A stretch of DNA of 64,000 nucleotides, taken from NCBI RefSeq assembly GCF_023022985.1, contig NZ_CP095461.1:1550001-1614000 (forward strand), read 5' to 3'. Positions 28,557 to 36,965 of the stretch are shown piece after piece. This stretch comes from Arthrobacter gengyunqii (GTDB taxonomy: Bacteria > Actinomycetota > Actinomycetes > Actinomycetales > Micrococcaceae). A model generated the notes under the pieces. That model had not been told where the DNA came from. It did not search any database and worked only from the letters and a program-made list of their open reading frames with translations. A program made the translations under genes and the position numbers. Numbering within the stretch: position 1 is the stretch's first letter; every line of letters begins with the position of its first letter.

Positions 28557-29156
28557 TCAGACCAGCCCGGCAGACCAGCGCAGCCGCAGGCTCTCTTCCA
28601 GCTCCTGCTCGGCGATCCGCCGGGCTATCTCGGCCAGCTGATCCTGAAGCAGGGGAATCCAGCGGTTCTCCACGGCACGCTGGCGGGTCCGGGTGGCAAG
28701 CAGCTCGCTGGAGACCAGGAGCAGTGCCCTTTCGGCGCTCGCCGCCGCCACCGCGGACTGCAGGGCTTCCCGATGCGCTGCGGCGGCAAAAGCCAGGGCC
28801 GAACTCCCGCCCGTCGGCGACGATTCGGGCAGCAGGCACTCGGCACCCTGCGGATAGGAGATGCCCATGGCCCCGCCCCACCGGACCGTCACCCTGGCGG
28901 TCCCGTCCGGCGCTGCCTCCATGATCCGGTCATCACCGTCCAAACCGGCGGCGCGCTGCAACCACACCGCAGCCCGGCGAGCCTGCTCCTGCCAGGCCAG
29001 GCGGGCGGCATCCGCCTCTTCCTGGAGTCCGTCGATGGCGAGCCGCAGGATGCGCTGCTTGCGGTCCAGCAGCTCGGCTCCGCGGGTGGCTGTGGCCAGG
29101 CGGCGCTCGACGTCGGCCTTGTCGGCCCTGCTGCCGCTGCTGCGGAAACCGCTCAT
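28557..29156 (-). CDS. ntpD: V/A-type ATPase subunit D
   Basis: 199 residues; ATG 29156 with GGAGGG eight bases upstream. Subunit D is the central rotor shaft. It is expected to be two long antiparallel helices, seen here as KADVERRLATATRGAELLDR near the start and RWIPLLQDQLAEIARRIAEQ near the end, with a variable middle. Last gene of the ATPase operon, 25 bp after subunit B. Identification rests on the terminal helices and on position. Confidence 0.9.
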   Translation of the reverse strand: MSGFRSSGSRADKADVERRLATATRGAELLDRKQRILRLAIDGLQEEADAARLAWQEQARRAAVWLQRAAGLDGDDRIMEAAPDGTARVTVRWGGAMGISYPQGAECLLPESSPTGGSSALAFAAAAHREALQSAVAAASAERALLLVSSELLATRTRQRAVENRWIPLLQDQLAEIARRIAEQELEESLRLRWSAGLV

Positions 29157-29181
29157 GGCCGGAACCCTCCCGCAACCGTGC

Positions 29182-30669
29182 TCACGACCGGGCACCGCCT
29201 TCGGGGACCGGCAGATACTTGTCCAGGAACTCGGCGGACAGCATGTTCAGTTCCCGCCGCGGCAGCAGCGACAAAGCCTGCCAGGCGCGCTCCATGGTTT
29301 CATCGAACGTCCGCAGCTCGTCCCTGCCCTGGTTGAGCAGGTCATGCTCCACCACGTTGCGGAACTCAATGTAGGCATTGTCGGTCTCGCTGAGAGCCGC
29401 TGTGCCCACCAGCTCGGCCAGCTCCGCGGCCGACCGGGCGCGGGCCATCGCAGAGAGGATCTGGGCGGCGACGTCGAGGTGATCCTCCCGGGTACGGCCC
29501 TTCCCGGCGCCGCTGCGCATCAGGCGGGACAGCGATGAGAGTTCATCCACCGGGGGGTAGATGCCCCGTGCATCGACGTCCGGATCCAGGACCACCTGAC
29601 CTTCGGTGATGTATCCGGTGAGGTCGGGAACGGGATGGGTGATGTCTCCGGCCGGCATCGTCAGCACCGGCACAATGGTCACCGAACCCTCCCTGCCCTG
29701 AACCCGGCCGCAGCGCTCATAGAGGGTCGCCAGATCGCTGTACAAGTAGCCGGGATAGCCCCGGCGGGCAGGAATCTCCCGCCGGGCAGCGGAAACTTCG
29801 CGGACCGCTTCGGCGTAGCTGGTCATGTCCGACATGACCACCAGCACGTCCGAACCGTGGTCGTAGGCGAGGGATTCGGCCACGGTCAGGGCAATGCGCG
29901 GAGTCAGGATGCGTTCGATCACCGGATCATCGGCCGCGTTCAGCAGCAGCACCAGTTCACCGGCGGCGGAGCGTTCCTCCAACCGGTCCCGGATGAAGGC
30001 GATGTCCGCGTGCGTCATGCCCATGGCAGCAAACACCACACGGAACGCCCGGCCGGAGGAGGTGGTGGCCTGCGCGGCAATCTGCGTAGCCAGGGTGAGG
30101 TGCGGCAGGCCGGGAACCGAGAAGATCGGCAGCTTCTGCCCGCGCACCAGCGTGGTGAGGGCGTCGATGGCAGAGATGCCCGTGAGCACCGGATCCTGGG
30201 GAGGCTCGCGGTACACGGGGTTCAGCGGCCAGCCGCCCACCGGCGTCGGCGTTCCTCCCGTCACCGGGGGGCCGCCGTCGAGCGGTTCACCGCGCCCGTT
30301 GCACACCCGCCCCAGCCAGCCGGGACCCGCAGGCACCGCCAGCGGACGGCCGGAGAAACGGACCTCAATGCCGCCCAGTGACATGCCCTCGGTGCCCTCG
30401 AGCACCTGCAGGGTGGTTTCATCCCCGTCCACTTCCAGCACCAGGCCGTGCCGCTCGGGCTGCCCCGAGACCGCCACGGTGGCGAACTCGTCCCAGCCCA
30501 CCCCGGCGGCGTCACCCAGCACCAGCAGCGGCCCGCGCAGCTCCCGCACGTCGCTGTGCCCGACGCGGGGGACAGACAGAGGGTCAGCCAGGGGCGACCC
30601 CGGGCCGGCGCCGGCAGGGTCGGGACCCTTAGCAGGCACCGGGTTCGCTGTGCCGTCATGTGCCGCCAT
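29182..30669 (-). CDS. ntpB: V/A-type ATPase subunit B (non-catalytic)
   Basis: 495 residues from ATG 30669, with CAGGAGG upstream; the longer open frame is ignored. The regulatory nucleotide subunit of the V1 head shows GLVLEVDGDETTLQVLEGTE, GRVCNGRGEPLDGGP and PVLTGISAIDALTTLVRGQK. KLPIFSVPGLPH stands in place of a P-loop, as expected of B subunits. LVVMSDMTSYAEAVREVSA and GYPGYLYSDLATLYERCGR follow. The N-terminal 30 residues are a Pro/Ala-rich extension. It overlaps the end of subunit A by 14 bp. Confidence 0.95.
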   Translation of the reverse strand: MAAHDGTANPVPAKGPDPAGAGPGSPLADPLSVPRVGHSDVRELRGPLLVLGDAAGVGWDEFATVAVSGQPERHGLVLEVDGDETTLQVLEGTEGMSLGGIEVRFSGRPLAVPAGPGWLGRVCNGRGEPLDGGPPVTGGTPTPVGGWPLNPVYREPPQDPVLTGISAIDALTTLVRGQKLPIFSVPGLPHLTLATQIAAQATTSSGRAFRVVFAAMGMTHADIAFIRDRLEERSAAGELVLLLNAADDPVIERILTPRIALTVAESLAYDHGSDVLVVMSDMTSYAEAVREVSAARREIPARRGYPGYLYSDLATLYERCGRVQGREGSVTIVPVLTMPAGDITHPVPDLTGYITEGQVVLDPDVDARGIYPPVDELSSLSRLMRSGAGKGRTREDHLDVAAQILSAMARARSAAELAELVGTAALSETDNAYIEFRNVVEHDLLNQGRDELRTFDETMERAWQALSLLPRRELNMLSAEFLDKYLPVPEGGARS

Positions 30670-32485
30670 CGGTGCCTCCTGAAGATTCCGTGCCGACTTT
30701 TGCGCGGTCCTGTCCGGCTCCGCCGAGTTGCTCCAGCTGGCGCAGAAACTCGCGCCCCTGCGCCCAAACGCCGTCGGCATCGGTGGGTCCGGTTGTCTCG
30801 CGCAGCCGCAGTACGGGCGTGAAGTCCACGCGTTCGACGTCGGCAGCCGGAACCCCGCGCGCCACCAGTGCCTGGCACGCATCCACCACGTCCAGCACAA
30901 TCTGCAGCAGGGCCGAACCCTTCTCTGCCGAGGAGTAGCCGTCATTGGGGCTGAGCGCGTTCTGCAGCAGCACGCCGTCGCGCACCAGCCGCCCGCCCAG
31001 CAGCACCATCTGTTCATGCCCCGGAAGCGAAGCGGTGCCGATGATCTCGGCCAGCGCAGTGAGCCGGTCCGCCTCGGAGAGCAGCAGAGTGGCCGAAGCC
31101 CGGCGCTGGGCCCACAGCGGATCTCCGTTGGCTGTGTGCCAGCGGGCCAAAGCCTCCGCATCACGGGAGAAGGAACCCCGCCAGCTGACAGCCGGATAGT
31201 GCCGGGAGTAGGCAAGGTCGCGGTCCAGCACCCACAGCGAACGCACGAAGCGCTGGGTGTCGGTGGTCACCGGTTCGCTCATGTCTCCGCCGGGAGGGGA
31301 GACAGCGCCGATGACGGTGACCGACGCCGTCGCACCGCCCAGCGTGCGCACCCGGGCCGCCCGCTCGTAGAAGGCGGACAGTTCGCTCGCCAGTGAGGCG
31401 GGATACCCTTCCTCAGCGGGGAGGTCGCCGTTGCGGTTGGCGAACTCGCGCAGGGCTTCGGCCCACCGGGAGGTGGAGTCGGCAATGACGACGGCGTCGT
31501 ACCCCATGTCGCGGAAGAATTCGGCCACGGTGACCCCGCTGGCAATGGAAGCCTCACGGGCCATCATGGGCATGTTGGAGGTGTTGGCTATGATCACGGT
31601 CCGGTCGATGAGTTTGCCTCCGGTCCGGGGATCGTCCAGATCGGAGAGCCCGTCCAGCACATCGGCCATTTCATTGCCGCGCTCGCCGCAGCCCACATAG
31701 ACAATGACGTCGGCGTCGGACCACTTGGCGATCTGTTGCAGGGTGAGGGTCTTGCCCGTGCCGAAGCCGCCGGGGACGGCGGCTGCCGAGCCGCGGGGGA
31801 GAGGGAAGAGCAGATCGAGGACCCGCTGTCCCGTGTGCAGGGGCAACGCCTCGGTCAGGCGCTCGCCGAAGGGCCGGGCGGTGTGCACCGGCCACTGCTG
31901 GGCGAGAGGAACATCGACGCCGTCCACGCGTGCCACCGGATCCAGGGGATGAACGGGGCCGTCAGCGAGCCACTGGACAACGCCGGCGACGGCGGGAGGC
32001 ACCATGACGCGGAACTCCACCGTCCCCACCCCGGGGACGGTGCCGATGATCTGCCCCGGCTGCACGGTATCGCCGACAGCCACCGAGGCGGTGAACTCCC
32101 ATTCGGTTTCCAGTACTGCCGGATCTTCAGCGGAGGCCTGCCGGTCCTGGGTCAGCCACAGGGGAGCGGAGGAGAGCGGGCGCAGCAGCCCGTCAAACAC
32201 CGTTCCCAGCAGTCCCGGCCCCAGCAGTCCGGAAAGCTGGTGGCCGGACCGTTCGGCCCGGTCGCCGGACTTCAGGCCGCCGGTGTATTCATACGCCTGA
32301 AGCGTGGCATTCTCACCGTTGATCGCCACTACCTGGGCGGAAATCCGCTCCGGACCGATGGCCACAATTTCCAGCATGGACAACCCCTGCAGCCCGGTGA
32401 TCTCCACCAGCGGGCCGCTGACCCGGGTGATGGTACCTGTCTCGAGGCCGGAACTGCTGCCGGCGGTGCTCACTCTGCGTCCCAT
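30656..32485 (-). CDS. ntpA: V/A-type ATPase subunit A (catalytic)
   Basis: 609 residues. Hydrolytic or synthetic nucleotide subunit. The Walker A region is VPGGFGTGKTLTLQQIAKW, followed by IVYVGCGERGNEMADVL (catalytic Glu region) and VIADSTSRWAEALREFANRN. The C-terminal block includes SPPGGDMSEPVTTDTQRFVR and YPAVSWRGSFSRD. The non-homologous bulge region typical of A subunits lies near residues 110-190. It overlaps subunit B and subunit E genes by 14-16 bp, so expression is coupled. Confidence 0.96.
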   Translation of the reverse strand: MGRRVSTAGSSSGLETGTITRVSGPLVEITGLQGLSMLEIVAIGPERISAQVVAINGENATLQAYEYTGGLKSGDRAERSGHQLSGLLGPGLLGTVFDGLLRPLSSAPLWLTQDRQASAEDPAVLETEWEFTASVAVGDTVQPGQIIGTVPGVGTVEFRVMVPPAVAGVVQWLADGPVHPLDPVARVDGVDVPLAQQWPVHTARPFGERLTEALPLHTGQRVLDLLFPLPRGSAAAVPGGFGTGKTLTLQQIAKWSDADVIVYVGCGERGNEMADVLDGLSDLDDPRTGGKLIDRTVIIANTSNMPMMAREASIASGVTVAEFFRDMGYDAVVIADSTSRWAEALREFANRNGDLPAEEGYPASLASELSAFYERAARVRTLGGATASVTVIGAVSPPGGDMSEPVTTDTQRFVRSLWVLDRDLAYSRHYPAVSWRGSFSRDAEALARWHTANGDPLWAQRRASATLLLSEADRLTALAEIIGTASLPGHEQMVLLGGRLVRDGVLLQNALSPNDGYSSAEKGSALLQIVLDVVDACQALVARGVPAADVERVDFTPVLRLRETTGPTDADGVWAQGREFLRQLEQLGGAGQDRAKVGTESSGGTDGGT

Positions 32486-32996
32486 AACCGGTGCACCTCC
32501 CCGGCATGGTTCTCCAGCGCCTGTTCGGCCAGCGCGGGCAGCGAGAAGTCCAGGTGCCGGGACCCTGCCGCTGCCGTGACGCCTCCCTTATAGCTCTCGG
32601 TGACTGAGGCCATGGGCCCCAGGATGCTGTCAGCGCGTTCGGTGAGGATCCTTAGCATCCGCGGATACCGGGGATCGCTTCGCAGCTCCTGGACCTGCTG
32701 CTGAACATGCCGGATCAGTTCGGTGCGCAGGGACTCCTGCTGGGCCAGGACGGTGCGCCGTGCTTGCCGCCGGATGCGGGCGGACCGTCCGGCCGCCTCT
32801 GTGTGTGCGGCTTCGGCACCCTGCCGTTCAGCGGTCTTCCGGATCTCTTCCGCTTCCGCCCGTGCGGTGCTGAGAATTGATTCGGATTCGCTCCGGGCGT
32901 CCTCGGCCAAACGGCTTGCCTCGGTGTCTGCCCGGCGCCGCAGGGCATAACGGACCGGCTCAAGGGATGCTTCGGATCCGGAGGGCAGTCGGCTCA

Positions 32997-32997
<1 letters not shown>
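32470..32997 (-). CDS. ntpE: V/A-type ATPase subunit E (peripheral stalk)
   Basis: 175 residues. A long charged N-terminal helix (ASRLAEDARSESESILSTAR, IRKTAERQGAEAAHTEAAGR) is followed by a globular C-terminal domain (RDPRYPRM-like RSDPRYPRMLRILTERADSI). Subunit E pairs with a G/H coiled-coil protein to hold the head still. It starts in an ATGA overlap with the F gene and overlaps subunit A. Confidence 0.88.
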
Positions 32998-34987
<1,990 letters not shown>

Positions 34988-35001
<14 letters not shown>

Positions 35002-35932
35002 CGAGCACCTCGCTGGTTCCGGCGTTCACTGCGGCAGCAGCCAGTGCAGCCCGCACCCGCCAGGCATCGACGGCCAGTACGGCCATGGCTCCCAGGACGA
35101 CGTCCGGTCCGGGCAAGCCGGCCCGCAGCAGACGGAACCCGTCCGTTTCCACCCGTGCCGCCAGCAGGGCTTCGGCACGCCAGAGTTCGGTGGGGATCTG
35201 CAGTGCATCCAGCGCCTGCGCCGGTCCGGGGGGAAGAGCGTCGCGCAGGGCGTCAGGGGTGTCGGCCCGCACCCAGCCGGTTCCGATCAGCGGCCGCAGC
35301 AGTGACAGCAGCCGCTCTCCGGGGGAGGACCTGTCGACAAAGACCAGCCGGGCGCTGATCAGGGCACCCGTTGAGGCTGCCCAGGAGCGCGCTGACGGAG
35401 CCTCATTGGCAAGCCGGCGCAGCCAGACGACAGTGAGGACGTCCGACAGTGCGGCGTCGGAGCCCGGATCTCCCCACGGCGAAGACGCCAGGGCGGAAAG
35501 CAGTTCTTCGACACTGGCTGCTGTCCGGAGCCGCGGCCATGCTGTTGCCAGTCCGCCAAGGTCAAAAGGTTCGAACTGTTCACCGGTCCCTGCGCCCTGC
35601 AAGGTTTGTTCCCGTCGCAGCTGCAGCTCCAGGGACACAATGTTGTCGGCTTCGAACACAGCAGCGGCGGAACGAACCAGCCGTGCGCCTCCGGCAGGGA
35701 GCCAGCCGGCAAGGACCCTCAGCTGCCACAACACAGTCCGGCGGGTGGCACGCTGTGCCTCGGCGAGCGTCGAAACATCTTCCAGTTCATCGGCATAAGC
35801 CGTTTCGGCAAGGCGGTCGAGGGCGGACTGCAACCCTCCCGCCGCAGCTATTCCGCGGCAGGTTCCCGCCCCCGCACGGCGCTGCGCCATGGATCTGGCA
35901 CGAACTGAGGCCGCAACCCAATCAGATCTCAT
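34988..35932 (-). CDS. ntpC: V/A-type ATPase subunit C (d-like)
   Basis: 314 residues, entirely helical by composition, as expected for the funnel-shaped subunit that joins the central shaft to the K ring. Stretches such as WVAASVRARSMAQRRAGAG (the family often has a similar YAxARVRAME N-terminus) and FEADNIVSLELQLRREQTLQ (family: DxxNlxxiLR) support the call. Divergent in sequence; operon position is strong supporting evidence. Confidence 0.85.
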
Positions 35933-36429
35933 AGTGCTGCACCCGTGCCGGGCTGCTCATCCGGGCCGCCGCCCTGCTCTGTGCCGAAGCCGAGTTCCGG
36001 GCCTGAACCGAGCAGATCACTCACAAGGTCCGCCACAATGGCAGCGGCCAGTGCAGGCACGCGGGACTCACCCCGGCGCTTCAATTCTGCTGCCTCTTCT
36101 GCTGCCTTTCGAAGCATCTCCTCGTCGGCGGTTTCAGCCTCGCGGGAGACCGCTGCGGCGGCGTTGGCCCGCACTGCACCGCTGTCCATACGGGCTTGCT
36201 CAACCATGGCGGCGGCCTGTGTCCTTGCCTGCGCAACCGTATCCGCTGCCCGCGCCGTCGCGTCGTCGATCAGCATTCCGCCGTCGCGGATGGTCGGAAC
36301 GAGGGCCTCAAAGACCGGGACAAGCTCGGCAGCAGGTCCCTGGTCATCGCCGGCGGGCACTCCGGAAGGACCTGCAGGCCCGGGTGCTCCCACGGGACGG
36401 AACCGGTCAAGCAAACTGCTGCGTGCCAT
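35929..36429 (-). CDS. V/A-type ATPase peripheral-stalk coiled-coil subunit (G/H-like)
   Basis: 166 residues from ATG 36429, with GGAGG six bases upstream; the longer open frame is ignored. A Pro/Gly-rich head is followed by a long Ala/Glu/Arg helix (ARAADTVAQARTQAAAMVEQ, VSREAETADEEMLRKAAEEA) and a short tail (PALAAAIVADLVSDLLG). This is the composition of G/H stalk proteins that pair with subunit E. Assignment rests on position ahead of C and on coiled-coil composition; the sequence itself is too simple for certainty. Confidence 0.75.
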   Translation of the reverse strand: MARSSLLDRFRPVGAPGPAGPSGVPAGDDQGPAAELVPVFEALVPTIRDGGMLIDDATARAADTVAQARTQAAAMVEQARMDSGAVRANAAAAVSREAETADEEMLRKAAEEAAELKRRGESRVPALAAAIVADLVSDLLGSGPELGFGTEQGGGPDEQPGTGAAL

Positions 36430-36455
36430 TTTGCACCTCCTGGGAAGCGATTCGC

Positions 36456-36797
36456 CTATCCGCCGGAAGTGCCGGCGCCGTCTTCGGTGGCTGCGGCTTC
36501 GGACGCCTCGCCGTGCCGCACAATGTCTCCGTCGGTAAAGAGGATTCCGCGGGCGATTTCGCGCCACAGCGGGGTCCTGCGCAGCAGGAATTCCAGTTCC
36601 ATGCTGAAGTGCTTGAACTCTTCACCCAGGGAATCGTGCATAATGGCGCGGGACTCTGCATCGGGCTCGACAGCCATGCGCTGCACGTACCAGCCGATGG
36701 CTTCAGCCTCTTCGCTCAGGCTGGCGCACATCCTGGCGAAGGTCCTGGTTTCTGCGGGAAGTTCCGATGGCGGCTCGTGATACTGCTCTGTGCCCAT
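36456..36797 (-). CDS. Encapsulated-ferritin-like (EncFtn family) protein heading the V-ATPase operon
   Basis: 113 residues; AGGAG lies six bases before the ATG. The pattern is that of the EncFtn family: YHEPPSELPAETRTFARM, then SLSEEAEAIGWYVQR, then GEEFKHFSMELEFLLRR and ARGILFTDGDIV. By comparison with the Rhodospirillum rubrum protein as I recall it, the ferroxidase residues Glu32, Glu62 and His65 correspond to Glu30, Glu60 and His63, with Trp36 and Tyr37 also kept. It would oxidise ferrous iron as a decameric ring assembled from two-helix monomers. The C-terminal tail (ASEAAATEDGAGTSGG) does not look like a known encapsulin cargo peptide, and no shell gene is in the window. It lies 26 bp upstream of the stalk gene. 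Confidence 0.83.
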   Translation of the reverse strand: MGTEQYHEPPSELPAETRTFARMCASLSEEAEAIGWYVQRMAVEPDAESRAIMHDSLGEEFKHFSMELEFLLRRTPLWREIARGILFTDGDIVRHGEASEAAATEDGAGTSGG

Positions 36798-36932
36798 GCT
36801 CGTCTCCTGATGCGGCCCGGTTAATGCCCCGGTTCCGGCGAGGTTCGCGTGATCGTGCCCTGTCCTTCGAGGTTACGGTTGGGTCTGCGGGGAAACAATG
36901 GTGGACCCTTCGGGCTCCTTGGAAGGCATGCA

Positions 36933-36965
36933 AAAGGCCCGGATGCAGCGTGCATCCGGGCCTTT
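36933..36965 (-). terminator. Rho-independent terminator of the flavin reductase unit
   Basis: Perfect 15-bp stem AAAGGCCCGGATGCA / TGCATCCGGGCCTTT with a 3-nt loop. On the minus strand the stem is followed by TTTTGC. It lies 18 bp past the flavin reductase stop and insulates the V-ATPase operon. Confidence 0.88.

Follow-up and report, generated by a model that had tools for sequence, protein, structure and literature searches.

A short EncFtn-like ferritin without a cargo peptide at the head of a V/A-ATPase operon in Arthrobacter

As described by He et al. 2016 (PMC5012862), EncFtn forms an open ring that oxidizes iron without storing it, the store being provided by the shell. What might such a protein do in a genome where no shell accompanies it and where it stands at the head of an operon for a proton pump? 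The question is raised by a gene of Arthrobacter gengyunqii (assembly GCF_023022985.1), which we studied within a stretch of 64,000 nucleotides, hereafter the window (contig NZ_CP095461.1, positions 1,550,001 to 1,614,000 of the forward strand). The gene encodes a short EncFtn-like ferritin and directly precedes the genes of a V/A-ATPase. We regard its product as probably a stand-alone, shell-free ferroxidase of the Non-EncFtn/s-FLP class, fused into the ATPase transcription unit in one genus. A preliminary description of the locus had placed the protein in the EncFtn family with Glu30, Glu60 and His63 as ferroxidase residues, and had described it as leading the ATPase operon on the same strand, with a terminator on its other side, no encapsulin and a tail unlike a cargo peptide. 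The profile searches, alignments and fold calculations presented below bear out this picture in each of these respects, as regards encapsulins for family 1.

An EncFtn core with neither cargo peptide nor shell

The window protein covers all of the Pfam EncFtn-like family PF22277 (positions 1-85 of 85) with a score of 69 bits (cut-off 27; E 3.1e-19), and the NCBIfam model TIGR04535, 'encapsulin-associated ferritin-like protein', gives 75 bits, which is below that model's cut-off of 125 bits. A search of the PDB aligns the protein without gaps to the R. rubrum (Rru) EncFtn 5da5, with the query number equal to the Rru number minus 2, and also recovers 3k6c (NE0167; E 5.6e-11). In the 5da5 alignment, Glu30, Tyr37, Glu60 and His63 fall on Glu32, Tyr39, Glu62 and His65, the Rru ferroxidase residues named in He et al. 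2016 (PMC5012862), while the entry-site residues Glu31 and Glu34 of Rru correspond to Glu29 and Glu32. These positions are conserved well beyond the window: in 129 EncFtn rows, representing 100 distinct proteins, E29, E30, W36, Y37, E59, E60 and H63 are kept in 127, the two others having been skipped for a damaged start, and E32 in 121 of the 127 tallied. The window protein has every one of these eight residues. By analogy with its relatives, it would be expected to form a decameric ring by iron-dependent assembly and to have ferroxidase activity.

The window genome, listed as 100% complete, consists of a single 3.69-Mb contig, and a profile search across it returned no match to the family-1 encapsulin PF04454; the control for this search was positive in three of 14 known genomes. 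No C-terminal cargo (targeting) peptide was found in the tail of the window protein. These two absences recur together. Counts for the genus refer throughout to the Arthrobacter group of the window genome, that is, 29 genomes within 395 sampled from the family, with members including Arthrobacter gandavensis, koreensis, citreus, luteolus, gallicola and pullicola. PF22277 is present in 52 of the 395 genomes, divided equally between the genus (26) and the rest of the family (26). PF04454 occurs in none of the 26 genus carriers, as against 25 of the 26 carriers from other genera; the sole exception among the latter is Tersicoccus phoenicis, and one genome owes its place among the positives to a fragment of 53 positions at the edge of a contig.

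The missing cargo peptide pairs cleanly with a missing adjacent shell, and this pairing is one of the new parts of the picture. A contig scan yielded 414 relatives, and among the best 80 of these, kept as named loci, 45 have both the peptide and an adjacent encapsulin, 32 have neither, three have the peptide only and none has the shell only. One of the 32 (L159) ends at a contig edge and other loci end near EncFtn, which makes a few of these absences less certain. The same division holds among 49 family loci (both in 19, neither in 30) and among the 100 distinct EncFtn proteins (both in 55, neither in 42, peptide only in three, shell only in none). In the 45 shell-adjacent proteins the peptide is LGIGSLK-like and C-terminal. 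The three peptide-only loci, two mycobacterial and one from Skermania, have LDVGSLK/LDIGGLK-like tails, and encapsulin was unmatched within the fetched locus. The peptide-less short form is also seen in Subtercola, Cryobacterium, Leifsonia, Glaciibacter, Paenarthrobacter, Tersicoccus and one Chloroflexia metagenome-assembled genome. At the level of the phylum, 72 of 396 sampled genomes match PF22277, 56 of them above the cut-off. In a subset of the 25 strongest matches outside the window's own genome, some of them incomplete genomes, PF04454 is present in 11 and lacking in 14; the peptide is found in none of the 12 readable tails of the negative genomes, whereas all eight readable tails of the positive ones end in a broadly similar peptide, with two counting as loose matches.

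A different mark of shell loss was considered and rejected. At the exit-site positions His57 and Glu64, the window protein has Asp55 and Lys62. Lys62 is found in all 127 tallied relatives, shell-linked ones included, and therefore is no mark of shell loss.

EncFtn is under strong purifying selection. Its median pairwise ratio of nonsynonymous to synonymous change (dN/dS) is 0.061, the lowest of ten genes compared, followed by ATPase B (0.097), msrB (0.119), K (0.123), A and I (0.173), and stk, C and E (0.24-0.29); these values, being pairwise counts over related sequences with high dS, are valid for ranking only. A chance or decayed open reading frame was rejected on the strength of this rank and of the strong PF22277 match. 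In a tree of EncFtn proteins the genus forms one clade (98/81), with A. gallicola and A. pullicola nested inside, whereas short EncFtns from other genera do not come out as a single clade. The tree has 97 columns and many open forks, does not include the window protein as a row, and was built after dropping L116, L159 and duplicate cores; it does not fix how often, or in which order, the peptide was lost.

Probable transcription with the ATPase operon

The V/A-ATPase operon begins 26 bp downstream of EncFtn and comprises nine genes on the same strand, in the order stk, C, I, K, F, E, A, B, D (Table 1). Profiles match subunits I, K, E, A, B and D, E falling slightly below its Pfam cut-off. Upstream of EncFtn lie a flavin-reductase gene (PF01613) and a gene that we take to be msrB, and a DUF2809 gene comes after ATPase D. 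The terminator upstream of EncFtn, which has a T-run of only four, was unlisted by a simple terminator scan.

Table 1. Features around the EncFtn-like gene, in window coordinates and in the direction of transcription
Feature	Position	Strand	Basis or description
Intrinsic terminator after the upstream flavin-reductase gene	36933..36965	-	15-bp stem, -29.3 kcal/mol, z -4.96
Promoter-like element	36870..36898	-	-35 TTGTTT (36893-36898), 17-bp spacer, -10 TAACCT (36870-36875)
EncFtn-like ferritin, short, 113 amino acids, without cargo peptide	36456..36797	-	PF22277 match, ungapped PDB alignment, tail scan
EncFtn-stk gap, 26 bp	36430..36455	-	sequence; AGGAGG, like a ribosome-binding site
'stk', stalk-like first ATPase-operon gene	35929..36429	-	named by position; 0 Pfam families
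ATPase subunit C-like	34988..35932	-	by position; 0 Pfam families
ATPase subunit I/a	33679..35001	-	PF01496, 68.1 bits
ATPase proteolipid K/c	33221..33682	-	PF00137, 60.6 bits
ATPase subunit F-like	32997..33224	-	by position; 0 Pfam families
ATPase subunit E	32470..32997	-	PF01991, 23.6 bits, slightly below cut-off 24.2
ATPase subunit A	30656..32485	-	NF003220, 631 bits, cut-off 470
ATPase subunit B	29182..30657	-	NF003235, 583 bits, cut-off 349
ATPase subunit D	28557..29195	-	PF01813, 88 bits, cut-off 25.7

The hexamer pair TTG-N16-18-TAnnnT, adopted in place of a first promoter pattern that was too strict for most loci, is found upstream of EncFtn at all 29 genus loci, against a mean of 0.0 in mononucleotide shuffles, and is preceded by a CCATTG prefix at 28 of them. 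No such pair was found by pattern scan between EncFtn and stk in any of 23 genus gaps, or in the window gap plus 60 bases. In the window the gap is 26 bp long and has no unusual fold (z 0.44); it ranges from 35 to 146 bp at 22 other loci, and at one more (L063) the aligned start comes after 4 bp. Since the genes share a strand, are separated by a short gap and have no promoter-like pair between them, EncFtn would belong to the V/A-ATPase transcription unit, and it is likely cotranscribed with the ATPase genes. The simplest reading of these patterns is that the promoter-like element appears to drive EncFtn and the ATPase alike. Three EncFtn-less genus loci keep the element, there placed before stk; one of them (L071) also keeps the start region and a damaged EncFtn remnant, a second (L072) shows a shorter trace and the third (L070) none that is visible. 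Of the ATPase operons of ten genomes from other genera, six have a -10-like TAnnnT placed 36-38 bases ahead of stk and four do not.

Two further observations concern the element itself. At eight loci of the koreensis/citreus/luteolus group, L070 and L072 among them, the 5' arm of a long hairpin after msrB holds a -10 of the form TACGCT, and terminator and EncFtn/stk promoter-like element appear to overlap. Control of the promoter through an iron box was also considered and rejected: the best match to an IdeR/DtxR-like consensus had mismatches at eight of 19 positions and was no better than in shuffles.

The linkage of the two modules is widespread within the genus and, among the loci fetched, confined to it. 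EncFtn and ATPase occur together in 24 of the 29 genomes, with EncFtn standing before stk in every one (23 loci and the window). In two others, A. gallicola and A. pullicola, the msrB-EncFtn order is kept, the ATPase genes are absent and the DUF2809 gene comes directly after EncFtn; in the remaining three, EncFtn is absent and the ATPase is retained, which requires three EncFtn losses on a protein tree of A+B+I (27 rows, quick method). ATPase subunit A (NF003220, E <= 1e-100) is found in 37 of the 395 family genomes, 27 of them among the 29 of the genus. The operons of all 37 compared are headed by stk, 24 with EncFtn (the window included), three without, and ten from other genera, and none of these ten has EncFtn in front. 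The ATPase lies in the fetched locus of 12 of the best 80 of the 414 relatives, all of them Arthrobacter.

Given that EncFtn and the ATPase were lost separately within the genus, a functional coupling is not supported, and the functional link to the ATPase was rejected on this ground; the two would share transcription, not obligate function. The preliminary description had named an EncFtn gene unlinked from the ATPase in related genomes as a ground for refutation; linkage holds for the 24 and fails in the others, weakening the case for coupling. The two other grounds that it named, a missing EncFtn profile match and ferroxidase residues out of register, did not arise. Its further suggestion that iron handling might be coupled to the ion pump runs against the independent losses, the ten operons of other genera and the rarity of the ATPase among the best 80 relatives.

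A proposed shell-free ferroxidase and its rivals

Taken together, the intact core, the paired absence of peptide and shell, and the gene order suggest a ferroxidase at work on its own. By homology, the subunits, of two helices each, would form pairs with a di-iron ferroxidase center built from the Glu30, Glu60 and His63 of both partners, and would assemble as an open ring like those of other EncFtns. In a genome without encapsulin, the protein would act in the cytosol, where Fe(II) may be oxidized and buffered and Fe(III) passed on rather than stored. The window genome encodes two ferritin/Dps-type proteins (PF00210), which are perhaps the acceptors. The distribution of the gene suggests that an ancestor of the Arthrobacter group already had it in front of the V/A-ATPase genes, and the promoter-like element now appears to serve EncFtn and the ATPase genes together. 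A bolder extension, to which we lend little credence, is that the free ring has a shell-less cytosolic job in handing Fe(III) to ferritin/Dps, and that, being cotranscribed with a proton pump, it links proton-releasing iron oxidation to the control of cytosolic pH.

Several points weigh against a stand-alone ferroxidase. According to a 2024 review, a shell-less EncFtn oxidizes iron without storage and Fe(III) precipitates (PMC11202242); hence a shell-free enzyme needs an acceptor, and the acceptor proposed here is putative, none having been found. The absence of a shell rests on family 1, and the family-2 model PF19307 was without a match in any control genome. The cargo-peptide pattern was loosened after the tails had been seen, a stricter first version having matched 36 of the 45 shell-adjacent proteins. 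The promoter-like element at 36870-36898 is a consensus pair conserved among relatives, and it went unlisted in a generic scan for sigma-70 sites. To these may be added the dN/dS values, usable as they are for ranking only.

The best placed of the rivals, itself unlikely, is that EncFtn is part of the upstream redox-stress neighborhood of msrB and flavin reductase and not of the ATPase. The constant presence of msrB upstream on the same strand at all 29 genus loci, including both without the ATPase, fits this explanation, which is nonetheless opposed by the strong terminator between the flavin-reductase gene and EncFtn in the window, and by EncFtn's own promoter-like element. Moreover, several loci of the genus yielded no flvR, and msrB is not recurrent beside short EncFtns outside the genus. 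Indeed, no recurrent neighbor of any kind emerged at the 18 such loci, where no neighbor family occurs in more than three; those that reach three resemble general ABC-transporter and dehydrogenase families. That comparison was made all-against-all over 178 proteins from 20 loci, and its gene caller shortened several starts and missed the EncFtn of one locus (L150).

Another explanation, which we hold to be very unlikely, would have EncFtn serve the ATPase, either by shielding the rotary complex from iron or by coupling proton-releasing iron oxidation to the pump. Its place at the operon head in 24 of the 29 genomes, the shared promoter-like element and the short EncFtn-stk gaps speak for such a service; yet EncFtn persists without the ATPase in two genomes and the ATPase without EncFtn in three, through three separate losses, the ten operons of other genera do without it, and ATPase A is not in the fetched stretch at 20 of the 32 peptide-less named loci. 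It is scarcely probable that the protein is still the cargo of an unrecognized shell, recruited through a cryptic short tail, given that PF04454 is absent from the complete window genome and all 26 genus carriers, and that the tails within the genus vary in both sequence and length (in proteins of 106-126 amino acids). Least probable is a decaying relic left by the loss of encapsulin: EncFtn was indeed lost in three genus genomes, with a visible remnant in one, but its dN/dS is the lowest of the ten genes and its ligands are intact in all 127 readable rows.

The stand-alone ferroxidase that we favor bears on a protein whose chemistry has so far been studied mainly with the shell in view. A complete genome that lacks family-1 encapsulin and encodes a highly conserved, peptide-less EncFtn is a clean system for the role of the lone ring and the fate of its Fe(III), and the natural losses of each module within the genus, EncFtn without ATPase and ATPase without EncFtn, are ready comparisons. 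The locus would also exemplify how one promoter-like element can serve both a leading gene and the operon that follows.

Relation to known EncFtn systems

The preliminary description had anticipated a new setting for the family. This stands for the ATPase, in that no report of EncFtn beside a V/A-ATPase was found in the open-licence papers searched, and it does not stand for the shell-less condition as such. He et al. 2016 already list a 'Non-EncFtn' group of EncFtn relatives without an encapsulin sequence (PMC5012862); the 2024 review names peptide-less EncFtns s-FLPs, leaves their encapsulation open and describes the peptide-less 3k6c as forming decamers (PMC11202242). The window protein resembles this group (3k6c, NE0167) in its EncFtn core, ferroxidase residues and short tail without a C-terminal targeting peptide, and differs from it in heading a V/A-ATPase operon. 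The comparison of encapsulin content covers the genus carriers, none of the 26 having the family-1 protein.

With the FLP-TP EncFtns of R. rubrum and H. ochraceum (5da5, 5n5f), the window protein shares a core that is gap-free against 5da5, the same ferroxidase ligands and the entry-site glutamates; unlike them, it is without a targeting peptide and an encapsulin, and it has the two substitutions noted above at the exit site defined by He et al. (PMC5012862). A further comparison is with actinobacterial EncFtn-encapsulin pairs such as those of Occultella, Paenarthrobacter and Cryobacterium, whose cores are about 67-78% identical to that of the window protein, but which end in an LGIGSL[KR]-like motif and are followed by an encapsulin gene starting at most about 12 bases past the EncFtn stop. 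The class to which the window protein belongs is thus already known, as Non-EncFtn or s-FLP; what is new is its ATPase setting, together with the pairing of a missing peptide with a missing adjacent shell.
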